From: a virus
Virus record (IMG/VR): IMGVR_UViG_3300032326_002475
Location: 1-64,000 of that record
Length of the DNA stretch: 64,000 bases
Direction: 5' to 3' (one strand)
Part shown: piece after piece, positions 1-42,438 of the stretch
Layout of the letters: each line of letters opens with the position of its first letter
Numbering within the stretch: position 1 is the first letter of the stretch
Program-made: the position numbers and the translations under genes
Notes under the pieces: generated by a model
Seen by the model: the letters and a program-made list of their open reading frames with translations, nothing else
What the model was told of the DNA's origin: nothing
The model's database searches: none

Positions 1-498
1 AAGCATGTACATATAGTTTGAAACTCTGCCACCAATAGTTCCGCCATTAATTACTAAATTATTCTCTCCGTCTTGATTAGGAAAAATTTGAGTAGATGAA
101 AGTAATTGATGCCAGTAAAGATTGCATTCATTTTCTAATGATTTCATTCCCTCACATACAAGAAATAAATCTTTATCTGGTTTAGAAGCAAAGTAATCAA
201 AAGGATTTTTTTGGATTATAACGTCCCTAGTGTCAATATAAAGAGCGTATTCATAATCTTGAGCATACTCAGCTAAAACTTCAAATACTTTATAGTAAAT
301 ATAATAAAATGGTGCTTCTTTAAAAACAATCTTGTCATATTTCTTTTCAAGTAATTTGATATTTTTGTCTGACACGTTATTTACAACAACTAGCTTGTCA
401 GCATTATCAATTTTTTTTAAGGAATCAAAGTAAATTTCTAAATCTGATGATTCAAAAATTTTGTCCCCAGATAAATAATTTATTAGTAAATTTTTCAT
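1..498 (-). CDS. Glycosyltransferase-like protein (C-terminus cut by window edge)
   Basis: The reading frame starts at the ATG at 498 and runs off the left edge, giving about 166 residues. It contains YALYIDTRDVIIQKNPFDYF, an aspartate-rich DxRDV..Q motif typical of a family of nucleotide-sugar glycosyltransferases that place a DxD-like metal site at the end of a beta strand. Further on is NLVINGGTIGG, which resembles the acceptor/donor pocket of the same enzymes. Its start overlaps the stop of the next gene as ATGA, so it is co-transcribed with the sugar cassette at 495-8535. I infer transfer of a sugar to a glycan; donor and acceptor are unknown. The family call is moderate and the exact function open. 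Confidence 0.55.
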   Translation of the reverse strand, partial: MKNLLINYLSGDKIFESSDLEIYFDSLKKIDNADKLVVVNNVSDKNIKLLEKKYDKIVFKEAPFYYIYYKVFEVLAEYAQDYEYALYIDTRDVIIQKNPFDYFASKPDKDLFLVCEGMKSLENECNLYWHQLLSSTQIFPNQDGENNLVINGGTIGGRVSNYMYML

Positions 499-1310
499 AT
501 TAAACTTTCATAAACTTTTCTAATGCCATACTCTAATCCCAAAAATTTAGCTTGATCAAAAAATATACAATAATTTCCTGTATAGTTATTGCCCCTAGCT
601 CCAGAGTTTATTATAACTGGCACTTTATGATCTGATAATTGATTTATCATATATGCAATTTGACTTAGTGACACTTTTTCTCTATATACACAGTCAATTT
701 CCTTAATAGAACATTTGTCATCTATATAGTATTTCAGTATAGTAATAAAATCGTCAATAAAGAAAAAATCCATAAGTTTGTCTTGATGGATTACGATTGG
801 ATTGTCTTCTATGTAATTTGATATGTTTGATTTGATCATTCTTCTTGCAGCTTCATCTTCTGCAAAAACATTATAAATTCTTAAGTTATAAAAGTTTGGT
901 TCACTATCAAATATTCTAGCAATAATATTTTTACTCAAGCCATAATAATCATGAGGCACTCTGTTGTAAATATTGTTTTCATATCCAAAAATATCTAAAT
1001 TTCTGTCTAGTTCCGCTCCTGATCCAAAATTAATTAGCTTATTAAAACTTGATTTATTTTTTTGTAAGTTTAATGCCATTAGTGTATTTTGATATAAGCA
1101 AGAATAGTCATCAGCCACAAGCCTATTCCCGCCATTTATAGCACAATGAATTACAATATCAAACTTATTATTACTAAAAAATAAATCAGTCTCTTCAGTA
1201 TTGCAAAGATCTAAATCATTTCTTGTAAGTGCTGTAATATCATATTCTTTAAGTTTTTGAAGAATATTACTACCAAGAAATCCATTTGAACCAGTGAGTA
1301 AAATTTTCAT
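495..1310 (-). CDS. NAD(P)-dependent sugar epimerase/dehydratase/reductase (SDR)
   Basis: This 271-residue protein belongs to the extended short-chain dehydrogenase family that acts on nucleotide sugars. The N-terminus has the Rossmann dinucleotide motif TGSNGFLG (residues 6-13). The catalytic pair appears as YGLSK (Tyr123, Lys127), with an upstream FGSG serine near residue 97. It is shorter than most epimerases (about 310-350), as is common for GDP-fucose synthase-like or 4-ketoreductase members. It sits in an operon with a 4,6-dehydratase and an RfbH-type dehydrase, so a role as the final ketoreductase or epimerase of a deoxysugar pathway is likely. The family is certain; the substrate is inferred from context only. 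Confidence 0.8.
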   Translation of the reverse strand: MKILLTGSNGFLGSNILQKLKEYDITALTRNDLDLCNTEETDLFFSNNKFDIVIHCAINGGNRLVADDYSCLYQNTLMALNLQKNKSSFNKLINFGSGAELDRNLDIFGYENNIYNRVPHDYYGLSKNIIARIFDSEPNFYNLRIYNVFAEDEAARRMIKSNISNYIEDNPIVIHQDKLMDFFFIDDFITILKYYIDDKCSIKEIDCVYREKVSLSQIAYMINQLSDHKVPVIINSGARGNNYTGNYCIFFDQAKFLGLEYGIRKVYESLI

Positions 1311-1693
1311 TATTTTAATAAACTTTTAATTTCACTCAAACAATTATCACAATCTTTATTGCTAAACTTGATTGCCTTATCATCAATATAGTAGTCTGCA
1401 ACAACTTTTGGACTTGGACCTGAAAGTTTTTTAGTCCCTTCAACATTTTCATTTATAGAGTCAAATTCTAATCCTTGATTCTTACACCATTCAATAGCTT
1501 CTGTTAAACAAGGGTACTCGTCATTATCTCCACGGCAAGTCCATAGAATTAATTTATGTCCATTTTTCTTGAACTCTATTAACAATTCAAGTAGTTCTTT
1601 ATGGCTATTTTTTTGTTCACCAATATGAGGGAATGCGTATTCACACAGTGTTCCATCAAAATCAACTGCGAGTACTAATTTTTTACTATCCAT
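1310..1693 (-). CDS. Small HAD-superfamily phosphatase
   Basis: A 127-residue HAD hydrolase. Motif I is DFDGTLCEY (nucleophile Asp11, acid/base Asp13), motif II is the threonine in LILWTCRGD, and the acidic motif appears as YYIDDKAI near residue 100. There is no cap domain, so it probably acts on a phosphorylated sugar, protein or nucleotide end. It overlaps the following LdpA-like gene by 8 bases and shares a base with the SDR gene, placing it firmly in the sugar operon. A sugar-phosphate phosphatase is plausible, but similar small HAD proteins in phages are often unassigned. Confidence 0.8.
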   Translation of the reverse strand: MDSKKLVLAVDFDGTLCEYAFPHIGEQKNSHKELLELLIEFKKNGHKLILWTCRGDNDEYPCLTEAIEWCKNQGLEFDSINENVEGTKKLSGPSPKVVADYYIDDKAIKFSNKDCDNCLSEIKSLLK

Positions 1694-2849
1694 GGTAGGC
1701 CTTGTTACTTTCTTTTACTAAATTTTGTGCGATTATAAAAGCTTCTGAAATATCATTATCATTATTGAAAAAATCATTATTATTGATATATTTTTCAATC
1801 AAGTCTCTTGCATATGTGCCTATTGCTACTCCATTTATCCTTACTCCAGATAAATTTGCTAGTTGCTTTGAATGAGAGTTAGTTCCGCCTGAAATAAGAA
1901 TGGGAATATTATCTTCATCGTTAATAGATTTGTAAACTTTTTTAGATGAAATTTTTTCATTACCTAGATTATCAATAATTCTCTTTTTATTGATCTTCAT
2001 GTTAAACTTTTTATTAACCACATCTGCACATGCTACTGCTTGAAGAGTCGTGTTATAATCGTCCTCTCCACCACTCATAGGATAGCCGTCTGCTTGGATA
2101 ATAATTTTATTATTTGAGATAACTGCAGCTTCTGAAATTCTGTGTTCTAGTTTAAGATTTCCCAAATTAAGGCGATCTAAGCACATAGAGTTATAGTTTG
2201 TTTTATTTATTTCACAAACCATTTTCCATTCTTCAAGTGTGACTTCATCCTCGCCAACTGCTGCATGAAGCTCAAATAATTCTGCACCCTCGTCTAGACA
2301 CTTTGGAAGGAGTTCACCTAGTTCTCTGAAGCTGTGCCTATATGAAATAATGTCGTTTTTAGGACATATATTGCTGCATTTTCCACAGCCTATGCATAAG
2401 TCTTTGATTACAATTTCTTTTGAGCTATCAGGGTCATCAAATGATCCACCTAGCATCTTGAATACATCTAAATTTTTGACAAAGTTTTTTGGTATTGCAT
2501 CTGTTGGGCAAACCGGGATACATAGAGTACATCCAATACATTTGTCAGGGTCAATGTATGACTTTCTAACGTGATGATCACCAGGCATTCCTATACTTAC
2601 CATTATATAGGGTCTAATTTGAATACTAGTTCCTAATTTAGAACAATACTCATATGCTAGATTAATTCCATCAACTGCAGCTTTTACAACATTTACATTT
2701 GCCGATACATCTAAAATAACAGCTCCTGCAAGAGTATATATAAATGAAAGCTTTTTAACTTGTTCTGTGTTTTCATTTCCTGCACCACAAATCATCTTAA
2801 AGCATTGTTCTTTTTTTAATATATTTGATAAAGTTTCAAATCTTGTCAT
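1686..2849 (-). CDS. LdpA-like protein with two [4Fe-4S] clusters
   Basis: A 387-residue iron-sulfur protein. Eight cysteines form two ferredoxin-type motifs: Cys104, 107, 110, 114 in CIGCTLCIPVCP, and Cys152, 155, 158, 162 in CIGCGKCSNICP. The flanking parts match what I recall of cyanobacterial LdpA. The N-terminus has KMICGAGNEN followed by YTLAGAVILDVSA, the middle has the HHVRKS and ELHAA segments, and the C-terminus has DGYPMSGGEDDYNT and ISGGTNSHS plus GVAIGTYARD. LdpA is known as a redox-sensing factor that affects the circadian period in Synechococcus. Here the gene lies between a HAD phosphatase and an aldolase in a sugar cassette, so it could instead serve a redox step of sugar synthesis. 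Family confident, role open. Confidence 0.8.
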   Translation of the reverse strand: MTRFETLSNILKKEQCFKMICGAGNENTEQVKKLSFIYTLAGAVILDVSANVNVVKAAVDGINLAYEYCSKLGTSIQIRPYIMVSIGMPGDHHVRKSYIDPDKCIGCTLCIPVCPTDAIPKNFVKNLDVFKMLGGSFDDPDSSKEIVIKDLCIGCGKCSNICPKNDIISYRHSFRELGELLPKCLDEGAELFELHAAVGEDEVTLEEWKMVCEINKTNYNSMCLDRLNLGNLKLEHRISEAAVISNNKIIIQADGYPMSGGEDDYNTTLQAVACADVVNKKFNMKINKKRIIDNLGNEKISSKKVYKSINDEDNIPILISGGTNSHSKQLANLSGVRINGVAIGTYARDLIEKYINNNDFFNNDNDISEAFIIAQNLVKESNKAYHG

Positions 2850-3601
2850 TTTCTATTATCCAAAAGATCCATTCTTTTTTTATAATCTTCGTTGCAAGCA
2901 AGAGATTCTGTATATTTTTTTTGCAGTATTAGTATCTCAAAATCTAAAGCTTTTTTAATTACAGTTTCTACATTTTCAATATTGTTTTCATTTAGGCCAA
3001 TTACAACATTTCTGGTTTCAATTCTGTCTAATAATTTTTTTTCAAACATATTTTTGATAAATTCAGAACTTTTAGTAGAGATATTTCCACCAAGTGTAGT
3101 AATTAAGTTGTATTGTTTTGCTTTTAAAAGTACAGATTCAGTTATTGAATAAATAAACTCACTGTCCGTTTCTTTCTTATCCATCTCGTATGATTTTGTG
3201 AGATCTGATCTTCCAACAACGACTCCTGAAATCTTATTTTCACCAACTAATAAGATTTCATCTATATTTTGGTATGCTGTCTTAGATTCAATTACAATAA
3301 AATTTCTATCTTTTTCTGGACTACAATTTACAAATTTTGACATAGCAAATGGTGTTTCAATCATTGGAGCAATAATTCCATTTATATCAAGCTTTTTACA
3401 ATTGTGTATATCTGTCTTTGCTTCACAACCACCAATTTTTACAAATGATAAAAGGTTACAAACTTCTGTCAATCTTTTGACATAAACAACATCTTCAAGG
3501 AATACTCCTTCATCTTCAAATGATTGCTTTAAGCCTATTACCCCGCAAATATTTGATAGTTCTAGAAGATTTTCTTTTAAATTAGTCATTTTCTTGTCCA
3601 T
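2846..3601 (-). CDS. HpcH/HpaI-family aldolase
   Basis: This 251-residue protein resembles the HpcH/HpaI/citrate-lyase TIM-barrel aldolases that make or break carbon bonds next to pyruvate or acetyl units. Visible landmarks are VKIGGCEAKTD, the metal-binding glutamate in PMIETPFA, and the aspartate in VVVGRSDLT, which match the Mg-binding positions of the family. It overlaps the LdpA-like gene by 4 bases (ATGA). Close by are two halves of a ThDP enzyme, another carbon-bond-forming activity. The protein may add a pyruvate-derived unit to a keto sugar, but that is inference; the actual substrate cannot be read from sequence. Confidence 0.72.
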   Translation of the reverse strand: MDKKMTNLKENLLELSNICGVIGLKQSFEDEGVFLEDVVYVKRLTEVCNLLSFVKIGGCEAKTDIHNCKKLDINGIIAPMIETPFAMSKFVNCSPEKDRNFIVIESKTAYQNIDEILLVGENKISGVVVGRSDLTKSYEMDKKETDSEFIYSITESVLLKAKQYNLITTLGGNISTKSSEFIKNMFEKKLLDRIETRNVVIGLNENNIENVETVIKKALDFEILILQKKYTESLACNEDYKKRMDLLDNRK

Positions 3602-3641
3602 ATTTATTTTAATTTTACCACTGAATTATGTTTATATCAAA

Positions 3642-4379
3642 CTACTCAGATTCCTCAATAAAAGGATACATATCATCAAGTCCAACCTGAATAAATGTTT
3701 CAGATTGCTTGTCAAATTTTAGAGATAGTGAAGGCACTACTTCTTGCCAAAATTTACAATCTACATCATATATGATGCATTCATTGCTATATAGTGTTTT
3801 CTCAAAGATTTCGTTCATGCTATTGATGTTATTTATCTTGTAATAATTAATTTGATAAGCTTCTGCAATTTTTAGCAAATCTGGAAACCACAGTCCAGTG
3901 TCAGAAGATTCTCCATATACATTGTTATTAAAATAATTTTTTTGTGTATTCCTAATGCTTAAATACCCTTTATTGTTAAGAACAACAATTTTTATATTTG
4001 CTTTGTGAGCTTTTATGGTAGCAAGTTCTTGAATATTTGTATTAAAGCTACCGTCACCAATAATTACAATTACATTAGAGCTTGGATTTTGTAAATAAGC
4101 TCCAACACTTGCTGGTAAAGCAAAGCCCATATCTCCTTGAGCACCAGGCATTACTAATTTTTGATTTATATCTAATTTTAAATTTTGACCAACCGCATAC
4201 GTCGCTGTACCTGCATCTGTTACAAAAATATCATTTGAATTTGTATTTTTATTAAGTGCTTCTATCACAGCATAAATGTTAATTCCATCCAAGTCATCTG
4301 AAAAAGAGTCCTGATAAACAGGCCACTTGTTTTTCCATTCTTGGCATTGATTGACCCATGATTGTTTCTCAAAGGACAT
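3642..4379 (-). CDS. ThDP-dependent enzyme, C-terminal (PP) half
   Basis: A 245-residue protein carrying only the pyrophosphate-binding domain of a thiamine-diphosphate enzyme of the acetolactate synthase type. The ThDP/Mg motif is complete: GDGS at residues 108-111 and NN at 135-136. Other family marks are VTDAGTATYA, and GAQGDMGFALPASVGAY, which lines the cofactor site. The N-terminal and middle domains are in the gene immediately upstream (4369-5400), which it overlaps by 11 bases. The two chains add up to 588 residues, the normal length of a single-chain enzyme. They must associate to be active because ThDP binds between the two domains. Function probably decarboxylates pyruvate or a similar 2-keto acid and transfers the fragment. 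Confidence 0.85.
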   Translation of the reverse strand: MSFEKQSWVNQCQEWKNKWPVYQDSFSDDLDGINIYAVIEALNKNTNSNDIFVTDAGTATYAVGQNLKLDINQKLVMPGAQGDMGFALPASVGAYLQNPSSNVIVIIGDGSFNTNIQELATIKAHKANIKIVVLNNKGYLSIRNTQKNYFNNNVYGESSDTGLWFPDLLKIAEAYQINYYKINNINSMNEIFEKTLYSNECIIYDVDCKFWQEVVPSLSLKFDKQSETFIQVGLDDMYPFIEESE

Positions 4380-5400
4380 TATCTAAAAAATCTCCTATAT
4401 CGTTTTTAAAAAAAAGATCTATTTTTACGTTATTTTTCAAGTAGTCATTTTCGTCTATATTTACTAGTATTTTTTCAGAGCTTGGTGAAAAAAGATTTTC
4501 ATCATAACCAATGTGTGACACACCTAATGAAGAACCCAATATCAATAATAAGTCACATTTTTGAATAGCATAATTCCCAGCCCTACTGCCTTTAATGCCT
4601 ATTGTTCCTATATTGAGTGGATGATTGTATTCAATAATATCCTTAGCTAAAAATGTGCTCACAAATGGTATAGAGTGCTTGTCAACATAAGATCTAAATT
4701 TATTTTGAGAGTTGCTTAGATGAATCCCGTAACCTGCTAGAATCAACGGTTTTTGTGATGCTTTAAGTTTATTTTTGAAAAATTCAATGTTATTTATAAT
4801 CTTGTTGTCGCTATCAATTTCAGGAGTGTACTTAGAACATAAATCAAGATCAATTATTTGATTTTGAATATCTGAAGGTATGTCCAACCAGCACGGACCT
4901 TTTCTACCTTCCATGGATAAATGAATCATTTTTTCTAATTCATACGGAACTTGATTTGCTTCAGTAATAAAAGAACTATACTTAGTAGCGCCTTTAACAT
5001 GAGAAATGATGTCATGTTCTTGAATCCCTATTTTTCTAAGATTTATGTTTAATTTTCTATTCAAAAAATTAGTAGTTTGATTTAGCCTGTAGTTTCCTGA
5101 GATAAAAATTAATGGAATACTGTCTTGATAAGCTGATATTAGTGTTGTAATGCAATTAGCTCCACCGCAACCAGTAGTGGGGTTGATGACAGTAATATCA
5201 TTCTTGAGCTTACTCTCAGCTAAAGCTGCATTTGAAGCACCTTGTTCGTGATGAAAGCAAATATAATCAATGTCTGGATTTTTGATAAACCCATCATTTA
5301 AACCTGCTGCTCCACCACCCATTATTCCATAAACACGTCTAATTCCATATTCTGATAATTTATGAGAAATATAGTCGCTAACTCTTAAACGATTTACCAT
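4369..5400 (-). CDS. ThDP-dependent enzyme, N-terminal (PYR and middle) half
   Basis: This 343-residue protein holds the pyrimidine-binding and central domains of an acetolactate synthase-like ThDP enzyme. The activating glutamate lies in CFHHEQGASNAA (Glu52), and GPCWLDIPSDIQ is the typical end of the PYR domain. A middle domain follows from about residue 205 (LILAGYGIH, then LILGSSLG and NIDEN). The chain stops where the PP domain would start; that domain is the next gene (3642-4379). In Yersinia, a related enzyme, YerE, attaches a two-carbon unit to a 4-keto-3,6-dideoxy sugar. The RmlB-type and RfbH-type neighbours make a similar role here attractive but unproven. Confidence 0.85.
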   Translation of the reverse strand: MVNRLRVSDYISHKLSEYGIRRVYGIMGGGAAGLNDGFIKNPDIDYICFHHEQGASNAALAESKLKNDITVINPTTGCGGANCITTLISAYQDSIPLIFISGNYRLNQTTNFLNRKLNINLRKIGIQEHDIISHVKGATKYSSFITEANQVPYELEKMIHLSMEGRKGPCWLDIPSDIQNQIIDLDLCSKYTPEIDSDNKIINNIEFFKNKLKASQKPLILAGYGIHLSNSQNKFRSYVDKHSIPFVSTFLAKDIIEYNHPLNIGTIGIKGSRAGNYAIQKCDLLLILGSSLGVSHIGYDENLFSPSSEKILVNIDENDYLKNNVKIDLFFKNDIGDFLDNVL

Positions 5401-6347
5401 ATAAAATTTTCCTTGTAATATTTAACTATTTCAATAATTTCTGTATCAAAATCACAAGAAGGAGCCCATCCTAAGTTCCTTATTTTTTCATCATTAAGTG
5501 CATATCTAACATCTTGCCCAGGACGTTCAGCACCAAAATCAACAAATCTTTGATAATCTTCTATATCTTGATTGTAGTATGCATTTATAACTTTTCTTAC
5601 TGTCGTAATATTAGATTGCTCAAATCCCCCAGCAACATTATAAATCTCGTTTTTTTGCCCTAGTTCAAGTATCTTTTCAACAGCTCTTGCAGTATCTTTT
5701 GCGTGTAGCCAGTTTCTAATAGGAGTGCCTTGATTATGTAGTGGGATTTTTCTACCTAATCCTAAAAATTTACATGCTTTTGGAATTAGTTTTTCTACAT
5801 ACTGACCAACACCATAATTATTAGTAGGTCTAATAATGTTATAGGGAATATCATAAGTTCTTGCCCATGCTATTATAAGTTGATCTGCAGCAGCTTTTGT
5901 TGCTGAGTATGGATTGCTTGGCTTTAATATATCTGTTTCAATATGTTCTCCGGTAGAAATGTCACCATACACTTCATCTGTGCTAAAGTGAATAAATCTT
6001 GGTACAACATATCCTTCTTTTTTATATATCTTTAGTAACTCTAAAATATTGTGAACACCAATAATATTTGAGTCAAGAAATACCTTGCTATCCCTAATGG
6101 AGTTATCTACATGTGTTTCAGCAGCTGTATTTATAAAATAATCACAATCGACAAGTCTATTTATTTCACAAATGTTTTTTTGTTCAAATAAAAAATTGTC
6201 ATATGTTTGAAAAGCTTTCAATAAGTTCATGTTTGATGCATAAGTGCAGCAATCTATCCCATACACATAGAAGCCTCCACTTAATAGAAGTCTCGTAACA
6301 TGGCTACCTATAAAACCCAAACATCCTGTAACATATGCAATTTTCAT
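5394..6347 (-). CDS. dTDP-glucose 4,6-dehydratase-like protein (RmlB type)
   Basis: A 317-residue extended SDR enzyme predicted to convert an NDP-glucose to its 4-keto-6-deoxy form. The NAD motif TGCLGFIG is at residues 7-14. The 4,6-dehydratase active-site triad is complete: Thr123-Asp124-Glu125 in STDEVYGD, and Tyr147/Lys151 in YSATK. RmlB-type landmarks also include AAETHVDNSIRD and the GQYVEKLIPK and RNWLHAKD segments. These fit dTDP-glucose enzymes better than CDP-glucose enzymes, although the RfbH homologue nearby normally uses a CDP sugar. It overlaps its neighbours on both sides, indicating one operon. Nucleotide preference is therefore uncertain. Confidence 0.9.
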   Translation of the reverse strand: MKIAYVTGCLGFIGSHVTRLLLSGGFYVYGIDCCTYASNMNLLKAFQTYDNFLFEQKNICEINRLVDCDYFINTAAETHVDNSIRDSKVFLDSNIIGVHNILELLKIYKKEGYVVPRFIHFSTDEVYGDISTGEHIETDILKPSNPYSATKAAADQLIIAWARTYDIPYNIIRPTNNYGVGQYVEKLIPKACKFLGLGRKIPLHNQGTPIRNWLHAKDTARAVEKILELGQKNEIYNVAGGFEQSNITTVRKVINAYYNQDIEDYQRFVDFGAERPGQDVRYALNDEKIRNLGWAPSCDFDTEIIEIVKYYKENFIW

Positions 6348-7219
6348 TTAATATCCTTGGTTTTTTTACATGCAAACATAAAAATATTAGAAAAATTCAC
6401 ACAATTTAAAGATTCTTCATTATTAAGAATATTTTCTTTTACAATTGAAAGCCCACAAGACTCAAACAATTTTTGTAAAGATAAATACGTAAAAAAATTA
6501 ATGTGTTCATGCCAATGTTTTTTATCATTATGCAATTGAAAAGAATCAGGATTATCAAAAACTAGTTTTTCACACGGAATTTCAATATATAGAACTGTGT
6601 CGTCGTTCATAAAATTTTTAATATCATTTAGTAAATTTTGAGGATATGAGACGTGTTCTAAAACATGACTACAAACTATTATGTTGTAATCATTATCTTT
6701 AAGTTCACTGTAATTTAATTTTTTACACCTTTCTGATAATTCTTTATCTGAAAGATCATATATGAAAATGTTTTCAGACTTGTGACGGTAAGGTGTATTT
6801 TTGCCTTGATCTGCACCCCAATCTAAAATATTTGTTTTTACTTCTACAAAATCTAAAAAGTTTTCAACTTCACTTACATTGTTCATATTTTCTGGAATAT
6901 AATTATTTTTTATTAAATATCCAGGTTCAAAAAATTCTCTAGTTTCTAAATATTTTTTTTCTCTATAAAAACAATACAAATTTTCTAGCTCTTCATCATC
7001 AAATCTAATATCACTAAATAAAAAACCACACATTTGACACTGAACAGCTTTGCATGGAAAATAAATTTTTGAATTTTCAAAGCCATACAGGTTCCATTCA
7101 TGATTCAAATCATAAACATCATAATCAAAGATCATTTTTGCCATAAAAGGCATCAATATTCCAGGACTTTTTGAAATATTTGTGCTATTGCAACAATAGC
7201 AAATATTAGATGTTTTCAT
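6344..7219 (-). CDS. SAM-dependent methyltransferase with N-terminal zinc motif
   Basis: A 291-residue class I methyltransferase. The N-terminus carries a cysteine cluster (CYCCNST near residue 7, then CQMCGFLFSD around residues 60-69) like the zinc-binding start of sugar C-methyltransferases. The SAM-binding core follows with NILDWGADQGKN as motif I and IIVCSHVLEHVSYPQ as the motif typical of methyltransferase family 13/23. The long C-terminal domain of TylC3-type sugar C-methyltransferases is missing. The gene overlaps both the RmlB-like and RfbH-like genes, so methylation of the deoxysugar or its precursor is the simplest reading. Other acceptors cannot be excluded. Confidence 0.75.
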   Translation of the reverse strand: MKTSNICYCCNSTNISKSPGILMPFMAKMIFDYDVYDLNHEWNLYGFENSKIYFPCKAVQCQMCGFLFSDIRFDDEELENLYCFYREKKYLETREFFEPGYLIKNNYIPENMNNVSEVENFLDFVEVKTNILDWGADQGKNTPYRHKSENIFIYDLSDKELSERCKKLNYSELKDNDYNIIVCSHVLEHVSYPQNLLNDIKNFMNDDTVLYIEIPCEKLVFDNPDSFQLHNDKKHWHEHINFFTYLSLQKLFESCGLSIVKENILNNEESLNCVNFSNIFMFACKKTKDIK

Positions 7220-8535
7220 GATAATTTTTCCTTAAAGAATAGTTCAACAATATCTCCAATGTAAGAAATTTGTTCTTCTGTAATAACAGGTGATGTTCCT
7301 AAAAAGAAAGTGCTGGTTGTAACATAATTTGCAACAGGAAAATCAGATAGCTTAAGATCACCAATTAAATGAGCATAAGCTGGTTGCATTAAGATATTTC
7401 CAGCAAAATACGGCCTAGTTTGAATCTTCTTTGATTCTAAAAATTGACATAAATCACTTCTCTTAAAGGGAGCGTTTTTTTTAACTGTTACAGGAAATGC
7501 AAACCAATTTACATCTGCCTTGGCCTGTGGTCTAGGTAAATGGAAATATTCTTCATATTTTCCAAAGACATTGAATAAAAGCTGGTAGTTTCTTTTTCGT
7601 AAACTTGATATTTCATCAAATTTATCAATTTGAGCCAAAAGCATAGAAGCTTGCACTTCAATTGGTTTGAGATTATAGCCAACTTCTTCATATACATATT
7701 TATGATCAAACACTTCACCTGGCATATTTGGGAGCCATTCTGAAAATCTAGCATTACAAGCTCCACATTCTGTAATGTTTTGCTTTCCAATACAAAAACA
7801 TCCCCTGCCCCAGTCTCTAATTGATCTAATAATTTTCTCAACTTGATCACTGTTACAAGTTACCAATCCACCCTCTCCACAAGTTATATGGTGAGCAGGA
7901 TAAAAAGAACAAGAAGACATCAAGCCAAAGCTACCTAAAGGATTACCATCATAAGTAGAACCTAATGCATCACAGCAATCTTCCAGTAAAATCAAATCAT
8001 TTTCACGCACTAAACTCATAAGCTCATCCATATTAGGTGGATTGCCTAAAACATGAGCAAATGTAATAATTTCAATGTCTGGATTTTCATCTAAAGCCTT
8101 TTTAACACACTCAATATCAAGGTTCAATCCGTCTAAGCTAATGTCAACAAATACAGGCTTAAATCCGCATTGAAATATGGGATTGACAGTTGTGGGAAAT
8201 CCTGCAATAGGTGTAAGTACTTTTGTTCCTTCGGGGAAGTTAGTTAATCTTTTTGATTTAAGTGCAGACATCATTAATAAATTGCTGCTACTTCCTGAGT
8301 TTGTTAGAAGAGCAAACTTTTTATTGAACATTTTGGCTAGTTTTTTCTCAGCTTTGTATGCATCAGCCCCTAATACGAGCCAACCATCAAGTAAAGTGGA
8401 TACAGCTTTTGTTATTTCATTCTGATTAAAGTATGGTCCAGCGTAATGAACATGGTCTTTACCAGCCCGCCATTCTTTTTTTGGTTCATTGATAACAAAG
8501 TTTTCAACTAGTTGCAAAAGTTCTTCTTTAGTCAT
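7216..8535 (-). CDS. rfbH: RfbH-type NDP-4-keto-6-deoxyglucose 3-dehydrase
   Basis: A 439-residue DegT/DnrJ-fold enzyme with the special features of RfbH (also called E1 or AscC), which removes the 3-hydroxyl of a 4-keto-6-deoxy sugar using PMP and a [2Fe-2S] cluster. The usual catalytic lysine is replaced by histidine (FYPAHHITCGEGG, His215). Cluster cysteines appear at Cys188, Cys246, Cys248 and Cys257. The 188-246 gap is exactly the C-X57-C-X-C pattern of E1, though the last spacing is eight rather than the seven residues I recall. It acts after the RmlB-like gene product. A TATAAT box lies 6 bases before the ATG and no Shine-Dalgarno sequence is visible. Confidence 0.9.
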   Translation of the reverse strand: MTKEELLQLVENFVINEPKKEWRAGKDHVHYAGPYFNQNEITKAVSTLLDGWLVLGADAYKAEKKLAKMFNKKFALLTNSGSSSNLLMMSALKSKRLTNFPEGTKVLTPIAGFPTTVNPIFQCGFKPVFVDISLDGLNLDIECVKKALDENPDIEIITFAHVLGNPPNMDELMSLVRENDLILLEDCCDALGSTYDGNPLGSFGLMSSCSFYPAHHITCGEGGLVTCNSDQVEKIIRSIRDWGRGCFCIGKQNITECGACNARFSEWLPNMPGEVFDHKYVYEEVGYNLKPIEVQASMLLAQIDKFDEISSLRKRNYQLLFNVFGKYEEYFHLPRPQAKADVNWFAFPVTVKKNAPFKRSDLCQFLESKKIQTRPYFAGNILMQPAYAHLIGDLKLSDFPVANYVTTSTFFLGTSPVITEEQISYIGDIVELFFKEKLS

Positions 8536-8556: not shown

Positions 8557-9285
8557 CTATTCAATCTCATAAACCCATTTAGTGTAATCATCTAAATTGG
8601 AATAATCTATGGTATCGTGATGCAGATTGATTAATTTACCATCATTACCAACATTGAACACAAGTCCAAACACACTTTCAACATACCATTCAAAGCAAGG
8701 GACATCATATTTCCAGTATTGTAAAAGTTTTATATAATAATTTTTTGGATTTGACAGTATGGCTTCTTTAGTTACAGATATATGTCCATTTCTATAAAAT
8801 CTAGTTGGTAGTTTCCAATCAATTATTTTTTTTGGATCTATAAAATCATCTAAAAATTCTTGCCAAGTGTGTGTAAATTTTATAAAATACTCATGATGTC
8901 TTTGATTCCAATTAACAGGCTGTTGATACATATTGTCTAAAATTTGATATCTGGTTGGAACAGATGCAAATTCTCCTTTAGGTATGTATTTGTAATAATC
9001 AATTAGCTTTTTCAAACCTTCTGGAGTATCTTTGATGCCTTTGCTTACTTCAAAGTCGCCATCCCATGGATTTGCTTCTACTAAAAAAGTTACGTCTGCA
9101 ATATTCTCATAATTCTTTACGAGATGATAAAATAAAGATCCACCGCCCATGCCTACATTGGGTAAATTAATTACTGGATGTTTTGATTTAATTCGGTTAC
9201 CTTTATTATAAATTATAACATTATCAAGATTTTCAACCCATGAAACATCTTCCATATATCTAAATATTACAACCTGAAAGTCCAT
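8557..9285 (-). CDS. DUF3431-like protein, probably glycan-related
   Basis: A 242-residue protein. Its start (VVIFRYMEDVSWVENL, then IIYNKG and INLPNVGMGGGSL) follows the pattern of DUF3431, a family with a glycosyltransferase-like fold reported mainly from fungi and bacteria. A later HISVTKEAI segment and a C-terminal pair of aromatic-rich stretches also fit. Start chosen at the ATG at 9285, preceded by the Shine-Dalgarno sequence AGAAGGA. It is separated from the RfbH gene by only 21 bases and from the upstream methyltransferase by a strong hairpin terminator, so it opens the sugar operon transcript. No catalytic residue can be assigned with confidence. Confidence 0.5.
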   Translation of the reverse strand: MDFQVVIFRYMEDVSWVENLDNVIIYNKGNRIKSKHPVINLPNVGMGGGSLFYHLVKNYENIADVTFLVEANPWDGDFEVSKGIKDTPEGLKKLIDYYKYIPKGEFASVPTRYQILDNMYQQPVNWNQRHHEYFIKFTHTWQEFLDDFIDPKKIIDWKLPTRFYRNGHISVTKEAILSNPKNYYIKLLQYWKYDVPCFEWYVESVFGLVFNVGNDGKLINLHHDTIDYSNLDDYTKWVYEIE

Positions 9286-40059: not shown

Positions 40060-40530
40060 ATGTGGTACAAAACAGCTCTCAAGGGACATAAGACTTACTA
40101 TGATTTTAATGATCTAAGTTATGAATTAAAGCAAGTTAATGACACTGATGATAGTGAATGGAAACCTTCTGGAGCAAGAATGAGAACAATTTCATATGTT
40201 TTAAATGCATATGACTTAGAGCACATGGATAAAGATAAGCCAGTTGGAAAAATGCTATTAGACTTGGATTTCTATACTTCTGGAAAAAAACAAATATATA
40301 TCAATTTAGTGAGAACTGATGATTATCATGAAGGTATGGGAGTAGCAACCAATCTTTATAAATGGCTTAAGTATAATTACGAGAATTTTGATAAACCAGA
40401 ATGGATAGTCAGTAATCCTATCAATCCAGCTGCAGAAAGAATTAGAGAAAAAATATTAGGAAAACCCCAAAGTTTATCTCCTATGCGTGAATATGATTTA
40501 GATTACACTCAAGGAAAATTGGATCTTTAA
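40060..40530 (+). CDS. GNAT-like acetyltransferase, MWYK family start
   Basis: A 156-residue protein opening the only plus-strand block. It begins MWYKTAL. The stretch VRTDDYHEGMGVATNLYKWL (residues about 86-106) matches the acetyl-CoA-binding motif A of GNAT N-acetyltransferases, followed by EWIVSNPINPAAERI as the next strand and helix. The substrate is unknown. It is followed without a gap by another protein with the same opening, MWYR. An inactive or binding-only relative is possible because the R/Q-x-x-G-x-G/A signature is imperfect. Confidence 0.55.
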   Translation: MWYKTALKGHKTYYDFNDLSYELKQVNDTDDSEWKPSGARMRTISYVLNAYDLEHMDKDKPVGKMLLDLDFYTSGKKQIYINLVRTDDYHEGMGVATNLYKWLKYNYENFDKPEWIVSNPINPAAERIREKILGKPQSLSPMREYDLDYTQGKLDL

Positions 40531-41166
40531 ATGTGGTATAGATTAGCTATAAAACCAAATATACCTGATAATGTTTTTGAACAACATGTAAAAGAAAAAA
40601 CTCCTAAACCTATTCCTGTCTCAGATATATGGACAGGTTCAGGAAGTGAGCATTTGATTCTTTCTGGTGATGAAAACGTACATCAAGCAGTAAGTCACAG
40701 TAACTTTCTTGACAGAGTTTTAGAAAGCGCAAGGGAAAGTGTAAGCCAAAATCCTGAAATTAGAGAGAAATATAATATATCTGCATTTCCAGAATATGCA
40801 TTTGGGCCTGAAGATTTAGTACAAAGAAGAAGAGAGAAATTAGGGCCAAGATACAATTCAGAAGATGCCGTAACAGAGATTCTTCATAAATACTTTGACA
40901 GAGGCATTAGAATTAGTAAAATGGGAAGCACTATGACAATAAATGCCTTTGCACCTCCTTCAGATCAGCAAAATGCCAAAATTTTTGAAATCATACATAA
41001 GTTACAGCCTCAAGATGTAGTTTTTATAATCAATTCTGATAAGGGCAAATTTGAAAAAGTTTATGATATTGATAGAGTGCATGATTATAATGAAGATTTG
41101 AAAAGCTTCATGGTTACTGGTCCACCGAAATATGTCTCAGATATATCCCGTTGGAGAAATTTATAG
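40531..41166 (+). CDS. Unidentified protein, MWYR start
   Basis: A 211-residue protein that starts MWYRLAI right after the stop of the previous gene. A basic helix (DLVQRRREKLGPRYNSE, about residues 94-110) and a final beta-alpha-beta section (DVVFIINSDKGKFEKVYDI) are visible. No family recognised. Its stop shares a base with the GTG start of the next gene. Confidence 0.5.
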   Translation: MWYRLAIKPNIPDNVFEQHVKEKTPKPIPVSDIWTGSGSEHLILSGDENVHQAVSHSNFLDRVLESARESVSQNPEIREKYNISAFPEYAFGPEDLVQRRREKLGPRYNSEDAVTEILHKYFDRGIRISKMGSTMTINAFAPPSDQQNAKIFEIIHKLQPQDVVFIINSDKGKFEKVYDIDRVHDYNEDLKSFMVTGPPKYVSDISRWRNL

Positions 41167-41645
41167 TGTGGTATAAATTAGCTCAAGAAGAAAACCTTGA
41201 AATTCACCCTAAAGATGAACAAGCTAGAAAATATTATGGAATTACTTTTAATCCAAATAAAGCTGGTTATATCTTAAGGGATGGAAAACTTCTAGATTAT
41301 TCTGAAGGTCAATATGAAAGAACACTAGACCATAGAGATATTCAAAATATTATGGACGAACCTGAAGAATCTAAAGGTGATAGATATTCTGATTATGTTG
41401 AGCCTTTTCTCAATCTAACTGGTGCTATTAGAGCTTCTTATATGAATAATGAATGGAGTATTGATATACATACTTCACCCACTGAAGAACAAAAAAAAAT
41501 TATAGTGAATTTTCATAAACCAGGAAGATCATTTTATTATGATGTTGATAAATTCAGAATACAAAGTTCCATAGAAAACGCATCCAAAGATGATGTTGAG
41601 AAAAAAATTGAAGAAATACAAGGTATGTTTTCCAATGTGGTATAA
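41166..41645 (+). CDS. Unidentified protein, VWYK (GTG) start
   Basis: Start chosen at GTG 41166, overlapping the previous stop by one base, because it gives the MWYKLAQ opening shared with the neighbours; a TTG at 41151 would add five residues. The 159-residue product is charged, with no cysteine cluster and no catalytic motif recognised. Its last bases overlap the next gene by 11. Confidence 0.5.
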   Translation: MWYKLAQEENLEIHPKDEQARKYYGITFNPNKAGYILRDGKLLDYSEGQYERTLDHRDIQNIMDEPEESKGDRYSDYVEPFLNLTGAIRASYMNNEWSIDIHTSPTEEQKKIIVNFHKPGRSFYYDVDKFRIQSSIENASKDDVEKKIEEIQGMFSNVV

Positions 41646-42438
41646 ATTTGCACAGTCTCAAGATGACATACAAAAACTAGTTGATTTCTTTTTGGAAAAA
41701 TATCCTGGTTTAGTCTTAAGAATCAATGAATATGAAAACAAAATCAAATTAGATAAAATCTCTGTACCAGTAGCATTGAGAAATCAAGGTATAGGCACAG
41801 AGATAATTAATGTTCTTAAGGAATATAGTCAAAGAGTGGGCAAACCTATTGTTCTTAACCCTGAACCTGAAAAAGGTAAAAAGGGAGCACTACAAAGATT
41901 TTATGAAAGAAATGAATTTGTAGATAATGCTGGAAGAAAAAAAGATTACGATTTGACAGATACATTTTCTAGAACTATGTATTATAAACCAAAAAAAACT
42001 ATAGCTTCAAACAATTTTTTTGAAGACAGTTTGAAAAGTCTTACTTCAGAATTTGTTGACGTTGCACAACAAATTTATGATGCTTGGGATGAGAATCCTG
42101 ATGTGTATGGTGGTGGAGGAATTTGTCATCTTATTGCAGATTCTTTTGTTGAAATAATAAACAAAAACTATCCAAACTATACTACAACAACATTTACAAG
42201 AGATGATATACAACACGTTGAGACCATAGTATATAACATTGATCCAGATATCTTATATGATGAAGATGATGAGAGTAATGAATTAGTTGAATTAGTCATT
42301 GTAGGTTTGAGCCCTTTTATTTATGAAAGAGGCGGAGGATTTTCATGGACAAAAATTCCAGATGTAGAATTCTCAAATAATGACATAACATTTTACAAAA
42401 CTACAATAAATAGACAAAACATAGATACAGATTACTAA
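41635..42438 (+). CDS. GNAT domain plus papain-like domain, MWYK start
   Basis: Start set at ATG 41635 (MWYKFAQ), 11 bases inside the previous gene, by analogy with its neighbours. About 267 residues. The first half carries a GNAT motif (VPVALRNQGIGTEIINVLKEY, residues about 40-60) and an ERNEF strand. The second half has GGGGICHLIADSF with a Cys-His pair, a later HVETIVYNI histidine, and YERGGGFSWTKIPDVEF. That combination resembles a papain-fold cysteine protease or transglutaminase-like family found in mobile elements. Fused acetyltransferase and protease-like modules suggest a host-modifying protein, by inference. Confidence 0.55.
   Translation: MWYKFAQSQDDIQKLVDFFLEKYPGLVLRINEYENKIKLDKISVPVALRNQGIGTEIINVLKEYSQRVGKPIVLNPEPEKGKKGALQRFYERNEFVDNAGRKKDYDLTDTFSRTMYYKPKKTIASNNFFEDSLKSLTSEFVDVAQQIYDAWDENPDVYGGGGICHLIADSFVEIINKNYPNYTTTTFTRDDIQHVETIVYNIDPDILYDEDDESNELVELVIVGLSPFIYERGGGFSWTKIPDVEFSNNDITFYKTTINRQNIDTDY

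Follow-up and report, generated by a model that had tools for sequence, protein, structure and literature searches.

A capsid-adjacent gene cassette, most likely for a branched sugar, in a jumbo phage related to Bacillus phage G

Gene content of the locus

The analysed window comprises 64,000 nucleotides (positions 1 to 64,000) of the virus record IMGVR_UViG_3300032326_002475, a 70,911-base IMG/VR entry with capsid, portal, terminase and polymerase genes. Ten minus-strand genes (1-8535) are located about 1.6 kb downstream of the major capsid gene of this phage-G-like jumbo phage. Most of them overlap by 1-11 bases; the exceptions are a 40-base gap before the aldolase gene and a 21-base gap upstream of rfbH. 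The following genes were identified, listed from the capsid gene towards the contig start:

10156-11010 (-), major capsid protein, anchor of the island; phrog_2522, 48% identical to that of Bacillus phage G
9384-10094 (-), methyltransferase-like protein at the island start, conserved in several sister phages (relatives 69-93%); Pfam Methyltransf_23 at threshold
8557-9285 (-), unknown protein at the island start without Pfam match, family present in a few sister phages
7216-8535 (-), RfbH/E1-type [2Fe-2S] PMP-dependent NDP-4-keto-6-deoxyhexose 3-dehydrase; NF011936, 434 bits
6344-7219 (-), SAM-dependent methyltransferase with an N-terminal Cys pattern (Pfam Methyltransf_23, 2e-15), found only in the window among the viral loci compared
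5394-6347 (-), RmlB-like NDP-glucose 4,6-dehydratase with STDEVYG and YSATK motifs
4369-5400 (-), YerE-like ThDP carboligase, subunit with PYR and central domains (Pfam TPP_enzyme_N and _M; catalytic Glu in HHEQ)
3642-4379 (-), YerE-like ThDP carboligase, subunit with the PP domain (Pfam TPP_enzyme_C, 2e-30; ThDP motif GDG...NN)
2846-3601 (-), divergent HpcH/HpaI-type aldolase, proposed builder of a 2-oxo-acid donor
1686-2849 (-), LdpA-like protein with two [4Fe-4S] motifs
1310-1693 (-), HAD-type phosphatase (BT0820-like); NF046079, 82 bits against a cut-off of 165
495-1310 (-), SDR/epimerase-fold reductase (Pfam Epimerase, 3e-19), proposed to reduce the branch ketone
1-498 (-), GT-A glycosyltransferase, truncated by the contig start

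A preliminary description of the region, based on the sequence alone, had reported one overlapping run encoding a 4,6-dehydratase, an RfbH-type enzyme, a ThDP enzyme, an aldolase, an SDR and a methyltransferase, and this observation was confirmed: all named genes are present on one strand. The LdpA-like protein, the HAD phosphatase and the glycosyltransferase had not been named there.

Assignment of the encoded enzymes

The RfbH protein exceeds the curated NCBIfam cut-off (434 against 423 bits) and its best PDB match is Yersinia E1 (3bcx, 1e-91). It carries His215, within an AHHIT motif that aligns with E1, where aminotransferases have Lys, and Cys188-X57-Cys246-X-Cys248. The fourth cluster cysteine is Cys260, and all four cysteines are invariant in 78 of 78 sequences compared. 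The last spacing is X11 in the window's enzyme and X11-12 in viruses, against X7 in Yersinia E1 and in bacteria. C3 deoxygenation itself was not assayed. The dehydratase reached 296 bits with TIGR01181, below the cut-off of 365, and the best of 13 viral relatives scored 305, which is why we call it RmlB-like only. However, it reached only 64 bits with the CDP-glucose 4,6-dehydratase model (TIGR02622), and the nearest PDB entries are all dTDP-glucose 4,6-dehydratases.

The ThDP enzyme is split over two genes. The same split occurs in three other viral sequences (loci L002, L085 and L081), so it is not a frameshift error. It had been stated beforehand that a grouping of the ThDP chains with unrelated decarboxylases would speak against a sugar-branching role; the chains instead fall with YerE-like ketone carboligases and away from E. 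coli IlvB, Gcl and PoxB, whose exclusion has a support of 95, albeit with long branches. In this comparison 5ahk and JanthE fragments stood in for YpYerE and ErwE, whose sequences were not included. The closest PDB entry is JanthE (8rph, 6e-48), followed by 5ahk. JanthE itself groups with other phage enzymes, whereas the window's enzyme is a two-subunit relative with a GDG motif in another branch. The use of a ketone acceptor was not measured. The genetic link to a keto-deoxy-sugar pathway is given by rfbH and the RmlB-like gene in the same operon, and bacterial relatives of the carboligase have RfbH within 10 kb in 53 of 80 loci.

The aldolase exceeds the Pfam gathering score for HpcH_HpaI (35 against 25 bits, 1e-8), but is divergent, has no significant PDB match, and its product is unknown. 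The LdpA-like protein reached 140 bits with NF045992, below the cut-off of 450 for the LdpA circadian proteins, and is called LdpA-like only. Only three viral copies were detected, always in the order HpcH-LdpA-HAD. Pattern scans of viral, phage and genome collections returned no relatives, partly because the patterns chosen were poor, and a family search in bacterial genomes holding similar clusters gave one true LdpA, from a cyanobacterium, and weaker hits that were not placed beside the clusters. A structural model was of low confidence (pLDDT 49) with non-significant TIM-barrel hits, and was not used for function. SDR genes often directly follow viral carboligase genes. The truncated glycosyltransferase is 88% identical to L085:18200-19000, whose model (pLDDT 87) matches GT6/GT8 enzymes at E about 1e-8.

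Neighboring proposed donor genes and variability of the island

Comparison of viral carboligase loci showed that the adjoining gene is often a 2-oxo-acid builder from an unrelated family, namely HpcH, PanB, DmpFG or NeuB-like. Families defined in the phages were then tested in bacteria, where 41 of 45 lay within 2.5 kb of a carboligase (Fisher p 5e-13; the bacterial loci are related to each other, so this value is optimistic). For the HpcH-type aldolase, relatives lie within 2.5 kb of bacterial carboligases in 17 loci and elsewhere in one. On the other hand, HpcH-type relatives also occur in four viral loci in which no carboligase was seen, and five viral carboligase loci have no obvious donor gene. 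DmpF and DmpG, which are absent from the window, exceed their curated cut-offs in the sister-type phage locus L086 (313 against 282 and 327 against 286 bits). The rare CDG motif of JanthE is shared by exactly the six phage enzymes beside DmpFG, and by a Burkholderiales-order locus with the arrangement RfbG-RfbH-DmpF-DmpG-carboligase. ErwE, the erwiniose carboligase, uses 4-hydroxy-2-oxo acids, and JanthE accepts 4-hydroxy-2-oxovalerate, the product of DmpFG, in vitro (PMC12247030, PMC12188165); the natural substrates of JanthE are unknown. Functionalized 2-oxo acids as donors would explain the neighboring genes.

Phages with 95-100% identical capsid proteins carry different cassettes directly after the capsid gene, which represents a hypervariable sugar island. 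In Bacillus phage G (Donellivirus) a decoration gene likewise precedes the capsid gene, but small unnamed genes and no annotated sugar operon are found downstream of it. The cassette has a lower GC content (0.29-0.31) than the capsid genes (0.37-0.39).

Proposed pathway and alternatives

We propose with fair confidence that the operon makes an NDP-activated, C4-branched 3,6-dideoxyhexose and probably transfers it. In this view, dTDP-glucose is converted by the RmlB-like enzyme to the 4-keto-6-deoxy sugar, RfbH removes the C3 hydroxyl with electrons from host ferredoxin or flavodoxin, and the two-subunit carboligase decarboxylates a 2-oxo acid and adds the acyl unit to C4. The SDR would then reduce the branch ketone, the methyltransferase may methylate, and the GT-A enzyme would transfer the sugar. 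The aldolase, LdpA-like and HAD genes would form a module that makes the 2-oxo-acid donor, which sister phages exchange for other 2-oxo-acid builders; a role of the LdpA-like protein in donor synthesis is a guess. Gene content, families, catalytic residues, linkage and variability are shown by the sequence data, whereas every reaction, substrate, product and destination is inferred; no activity was measured.

The preliminary interpretation, a yersiniose-like sequence of 4,6-dehydration, C3 deoxygenation and ThDP-dependent branching, was partly supported. Its core idea is retained with three corrections: the branch donor is probably not plain pyruvate, because the aldolase, LdpA-like and HAD genes look like a donor module that sister phages exchange for PanB, DmpFG or NeuB-like genes; the nucleotide, which had been left undecided, is more likely dTDP than CDP; and related cassettes occur in many viral contigs rather than being a one-off.

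The yersiniose A pathway of the Yersinia pseudotuberculosis O-antigen likewise combines a 4,6-dehydratase, an E1-type 3-dehydrase, a YerE-like enzyme and a reductase. The phage operon differs from it by the RmlB-type instead of the CDP-type dehydratase, the lack of E3, the split carboligase and the additional aldolase/LdpA-like/HAD module; it would work like this pathway, but is not a member of it. No CDP-glucose 4,6-dehydratase above cut-off, only RmlB-type enzymes, and no Fer2-type E3 reductase were found in 49 viral records, although these records are fragments. With no dedicated RfbH reductase encoded, host electron carriers must serve. SpnQ of the spinosyn pathway is a precedent for an E1-type [2Fe-2S] enzyme acting on dTDP sugars with general reductases (PMC8987622), although its substrate is a 2,6-dideoxy sugar and no C-branching is involved; its sequence was not compared here. 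Single nucleotide-sugar genes of phages such as rfbH, gmd and ilvB have been listed as auxiliary genes (PMC10653327, PMC8226683), while no report of a linked branched-sugar operon, of donor pairing or of capsid-adjacent variation was found in the open papers examined.

Two destinations of the sugar were considered. Decoration of the phage's own virion (capsid or decoration protein), giving variable glycan coats, is about as likely as not. The island starts directly after the capsid gene and varies while the capsid protein stays nearly constant, the operon ends in a GT-A transferase, no phosphoglycosyl transferase or Wzx flippase was found in the 49 viral records, and virion glycans are known in mycobacteriophages (cited in PMC12619734). 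However, position alone is weak evidence, and in fragmentary records export genes could lie elsewhere. Modification of the host surface polysaccharide, for example to exclude other phages, is possible but somewhat less favored; here the phage would supply the nucleotide sugar and a transferase and the host the rest. All known YerE-like products are cell-surface sugars (PMC12247030) and bacterial relatives sit in surface-polysaccharide-type clusters, but no lipid-carrier transferase or flippase was found in the 49 viral records, and this and the location beside the capsid genes argue against it. The host was not assigned. Glycosylation of phage DNA was also considered, and nothing in this analysis tests it.

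It is less likely that the same chemistry runs on CDP sugars, either because the RmlB-like enzyme has shifted to CDP-glucose or because host RfbF/RfbG supply the intermediate. Bacterial relatives do pair RfbH with CDP-glucose 4,6-dehydratase (24 of 30 loci), and the viral dehydratase scores below the RmlB cut-off. Against this, no CDP-type enzyme above cut-off was found in the 49 records, an RmlB-like enzyme lies within the flank in 47 of 80 viral RfbH loci, one record also has an RmlA-like gene (320 bits against a cut-off of 361), and SpnQ is a dTDP-using precedent. That the LdpA-like protein is the electron donor of RfbH is unlikely: it is a predicted two-cluster redox protein and no Fer2-type E3 is encoded in the viral records searched, but it is present in only three viral loci, always between the aldolase and HAD genes, while RfbH is present in more than 80. 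A true acetolactate synthase boosting host branched-chain amino acid or pantothenate supply is very unlikely; the best NCBIfam hits are acetolactate synthases, a sister phage has PanB and viral 'ilvB' has been listed as an auxiliary gene (PMC8226683), but all such hits are far under their cut-offs, JanthE is the closest PDB entry, RfbH is a frequent neighbor, and PanB is only one of several exchanged donor genes. Misassembly of a bacterial cluster with phage DNA, which the metagenomic origin and the GC difference might suggest, is contradicted by the same junction in contigs from other metagenomes, e.g., L085 with 100% capsid and 96% RmlB identity, and by the distinct Fe-S spacing of viral RfbH.

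A more far-reaching and tentative reading is that phage-G-like jumbo phages, and other phages, run a modular branched-sugar factory beside the capsid gene, in which an RfbH/RmlB-type front end with interchangeable carboligase and donor modules lets close relatives coat their virions with different, rapidly switching branched sugars. The pairing of donor gene and carboligase would then be a general rule that also predicts 4-hydroxy-2-oxovalerate as the natural donor of JanthE-type CDG enzymes.

The proposed pathway would show that viruses of bacteria encode a route to C-branched dideoxy sugars, with capsid-linked variation that resembles antigenic switching. It offers a way to predict the donor of the many uncharacterized YerE-like carboligases from the gene beside them, starting with JanthE. 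It also warns that 'acetolactate synthase' and 'pantothenate' auxiliary genes reported in phages may be sugar-branching enzymes.

Gene content of the capsid-adjacent operon

The window covers bases 1-64,000 of a virus record in IMG/VR with a length of 70,911 bases, which carries phage genes for capsid, portal, terminase, a DnaE-type polymerase, helicase and ribonucleotide reductase. The capsid protein is 48% identical to that of Bacillus phage G, and relatives with similar capsid proteins lie on contigs of up to 479 kb, so that the record probably represents a fragment of a jumbo phage. From the capsid gene to the contig start a single run on the minus strand encodes all the genes named in the preliminary description, whose observation therefore holds, and additionally three which it had not named: an LdpA-like protein with two [4Fe-4S] motifs, a HAD phosphatase and a glycosyltransferase. 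The latter has no Pfam match, but a full-length homolog was modeled well (pLDDT 87) and the model matches GT-A glycosyltransferases of the GT6 and GT8 types. The GC content is 0.29-0.31 in the cassette (window 1-8000) against 0.37-0.39 in the capsid region, which is consistent with a different evolutionary history. Elsewhere in this otherwise minus-strand genome a small group of genes is located on the plus strand (window 40060-42438), one protein of which matches part of a PHROG of unknown function comprising 3,925 positions.

Dehydrase, nucleotide and carboligase

The RfbH protein passes the curated RfbH cut-off and its best match is E1 of Yersinia. The His residue and all four cluster cysteines are conserved in the sequences compared (78 of 78 for the cysteines). 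The last spacing differs consistently, with 11-12 residues in the viral sequences and seven in all 11 bacterial sequences measured and in E1. The viral enzymes are thus a recognizable lineage.

In bacterial clusters with related carboligases, RfbH is located beside a CDP-glucose 4,6-dehydratase: 29 of 38 genomes contain this enzyme over the cut-off, and RfbH flanks it in 24 of 30 loci retrieved. In contrast, none of 49 viral records has this enzyme over the cut-off; they contain RmlB-like enzymes. SpnQ demonstrates that an E1-type enzyme can work on dTDP sugars with general reductases (PMC8987622), and no E3-like Fer2 protein was found in the viral records. With regard to the nucleotide, which the preliminary description had considered unclear, dTDP is therefore the better guess, although it is unproven.

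According to family models both halves of the ThDP enzyme are acetolactate-synthase-like, but they score far under the respective cut-offs. The closest solved structure is JanthE (8rph), followed by 5ahk, which we take to be PpYerE, and then by true synthases. A grouping of these chains with unrelated decarboxylases had been named in advance as one of the outcomes that would speak against a branched-sugar pathway. In a tree of 100 sequences, however, the viral and related bacterial enzymes together with JanthE separate from IlvB, Gcl and PoxB of Escherichia coli with a support of 95, whereby some branches are long and the tree search was a quick one. The division into a subunit with PYR and central domains and a PP subunit recurs in the viral sequences L002, L085 and L081 and looks like a real two-subunit variant. 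YerE-like enzymes are described as the only decarboxylase subclass known to use isolated ketones, and ErwE takes 4-hydroxy-2-oxo acids rather than pyruvate (PMC12247030). Overall, the interpretation given in the preliminary description, a yersiniose-like route to a branched 3,6-dideoxy sugar, is supported in part.

Genes beside the carboligases

Comparison of the genes beside each viral carboligase revealed, in different loci, DmpF together with DmpG, PanB, HpcH aldolases with or without LdpA-like and HAD proteins, a NeuB-like synthase, a DAHP-synthase-like enzyme (named from its sequence, without a profile scan) and what reads as a class I aminotransferase, whereas five loci have none of these. 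All of them are enzymes that can make 2-oxo acids. DmpF, DmpG and PanB exceed curated cut-offs. Since these families had been chosen from viral neighbors, they were subsequently tested on bacterial loci, where 41 of 45 family members lie within 2.5 kb of the carboligase (Fisher p 5e-13). It has to be considered that these loci are related to each other and that some of the members are remote (LeuA-like proteins matched by DmpG). For a further check, genomes of the order Burkholderiales were used which had been found by carboligase similarity alone. Here, NeuB-like genes adjoin the carboligase in seven of 15 loci, and the one enzyme detected with a CDG motif lies in a run RfbG-RfbH-DmpF-DmpG-carboligase. 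CDG is the motif described as unique to JanthE. Among the phage enzymes exactly the six beside DmpFG possess it, and JanthE accepts 4-hydroxy-2-oxovalerate, the product of DmpG (PMC12188165). We take this as good evidence that the neighboring gene builds the acyl donor, while for the module of the window itself (divergent HpcH, LdpA-like and HAD proteins) the exact 2-oxo acid is unknown. NeuB-like synthases beside YerE-like carboligases occur in many bacterial surface-sugar clusters (loci L330-L336, L341, L175, L176 and L225-L227), suggesting large 2-oxo acids as branch donors. There are also HpcH-type aldolases without a YerE-like carboligase (L026:18139-20755, L070, L072 and L010), which are located next to RmlB-like and SDR genes and, in L026, a two-gene transketolase-like enzyme.

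Variability of the island and possible destination of the proposed sugar

In 22 compared contigs with capsid proteins 95-100% identical to that of the window, the region after the capsid gene differs from phage to phage. RfbH is present in 15 of 23 contigs including the window, some of the others being cut short, and five of the 23 carry a carboligase in the stretch compared, each of them with a different partner set. Contig L085 shares the capsid (100%) and RmlB (96%) with the window, yet it contains a carboligase of 52% identity and PanB in place of the aldolase module. Further genes in or facing these islands are:

L011:16406-19987, minus strand, and homologs in L086, L088, L090, L095, L097, L098 and L112: a convergent block facing the island, encoding a PfkB kinase, an RmlC-like epimerase, a second DegT enzyme with His in the Lys position (ColD-like dehydrase) and a two-gene transketolase/E1-like ThDP enzyme
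L092:12641-13816, and L107: a RuBisCO-large-chain-like protein inside the same capsid-adjacent island
L090:10904-12115, and L105: a LAGLIDADG-type homing endonuclease directly after the capsid gene, which may help to move cassettes

The convergent block, which many of the islands face, is possibly a second, unrelated branched-sugar route in the same phages.

Neither a phosphoglycosyl transferase nor a Wzx-type flippase was found in 49 records, which speaks against the assembly of a lipid-linked polymer, though the records are fragments. The location and the terminal transferase favor a glycosylation of the virion, but a modification of the host surface is not excluded.

RfbH and "ilvB" have been listed singly as viral auxiliary genes (PMC10653327, PMC8226683), whereas no report of a viral branched-sugar operon or of the donor pairing was found in a search limited to open papers. 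We regard the operon as a modified version of a known pathway which occurs in an unexpected setting.
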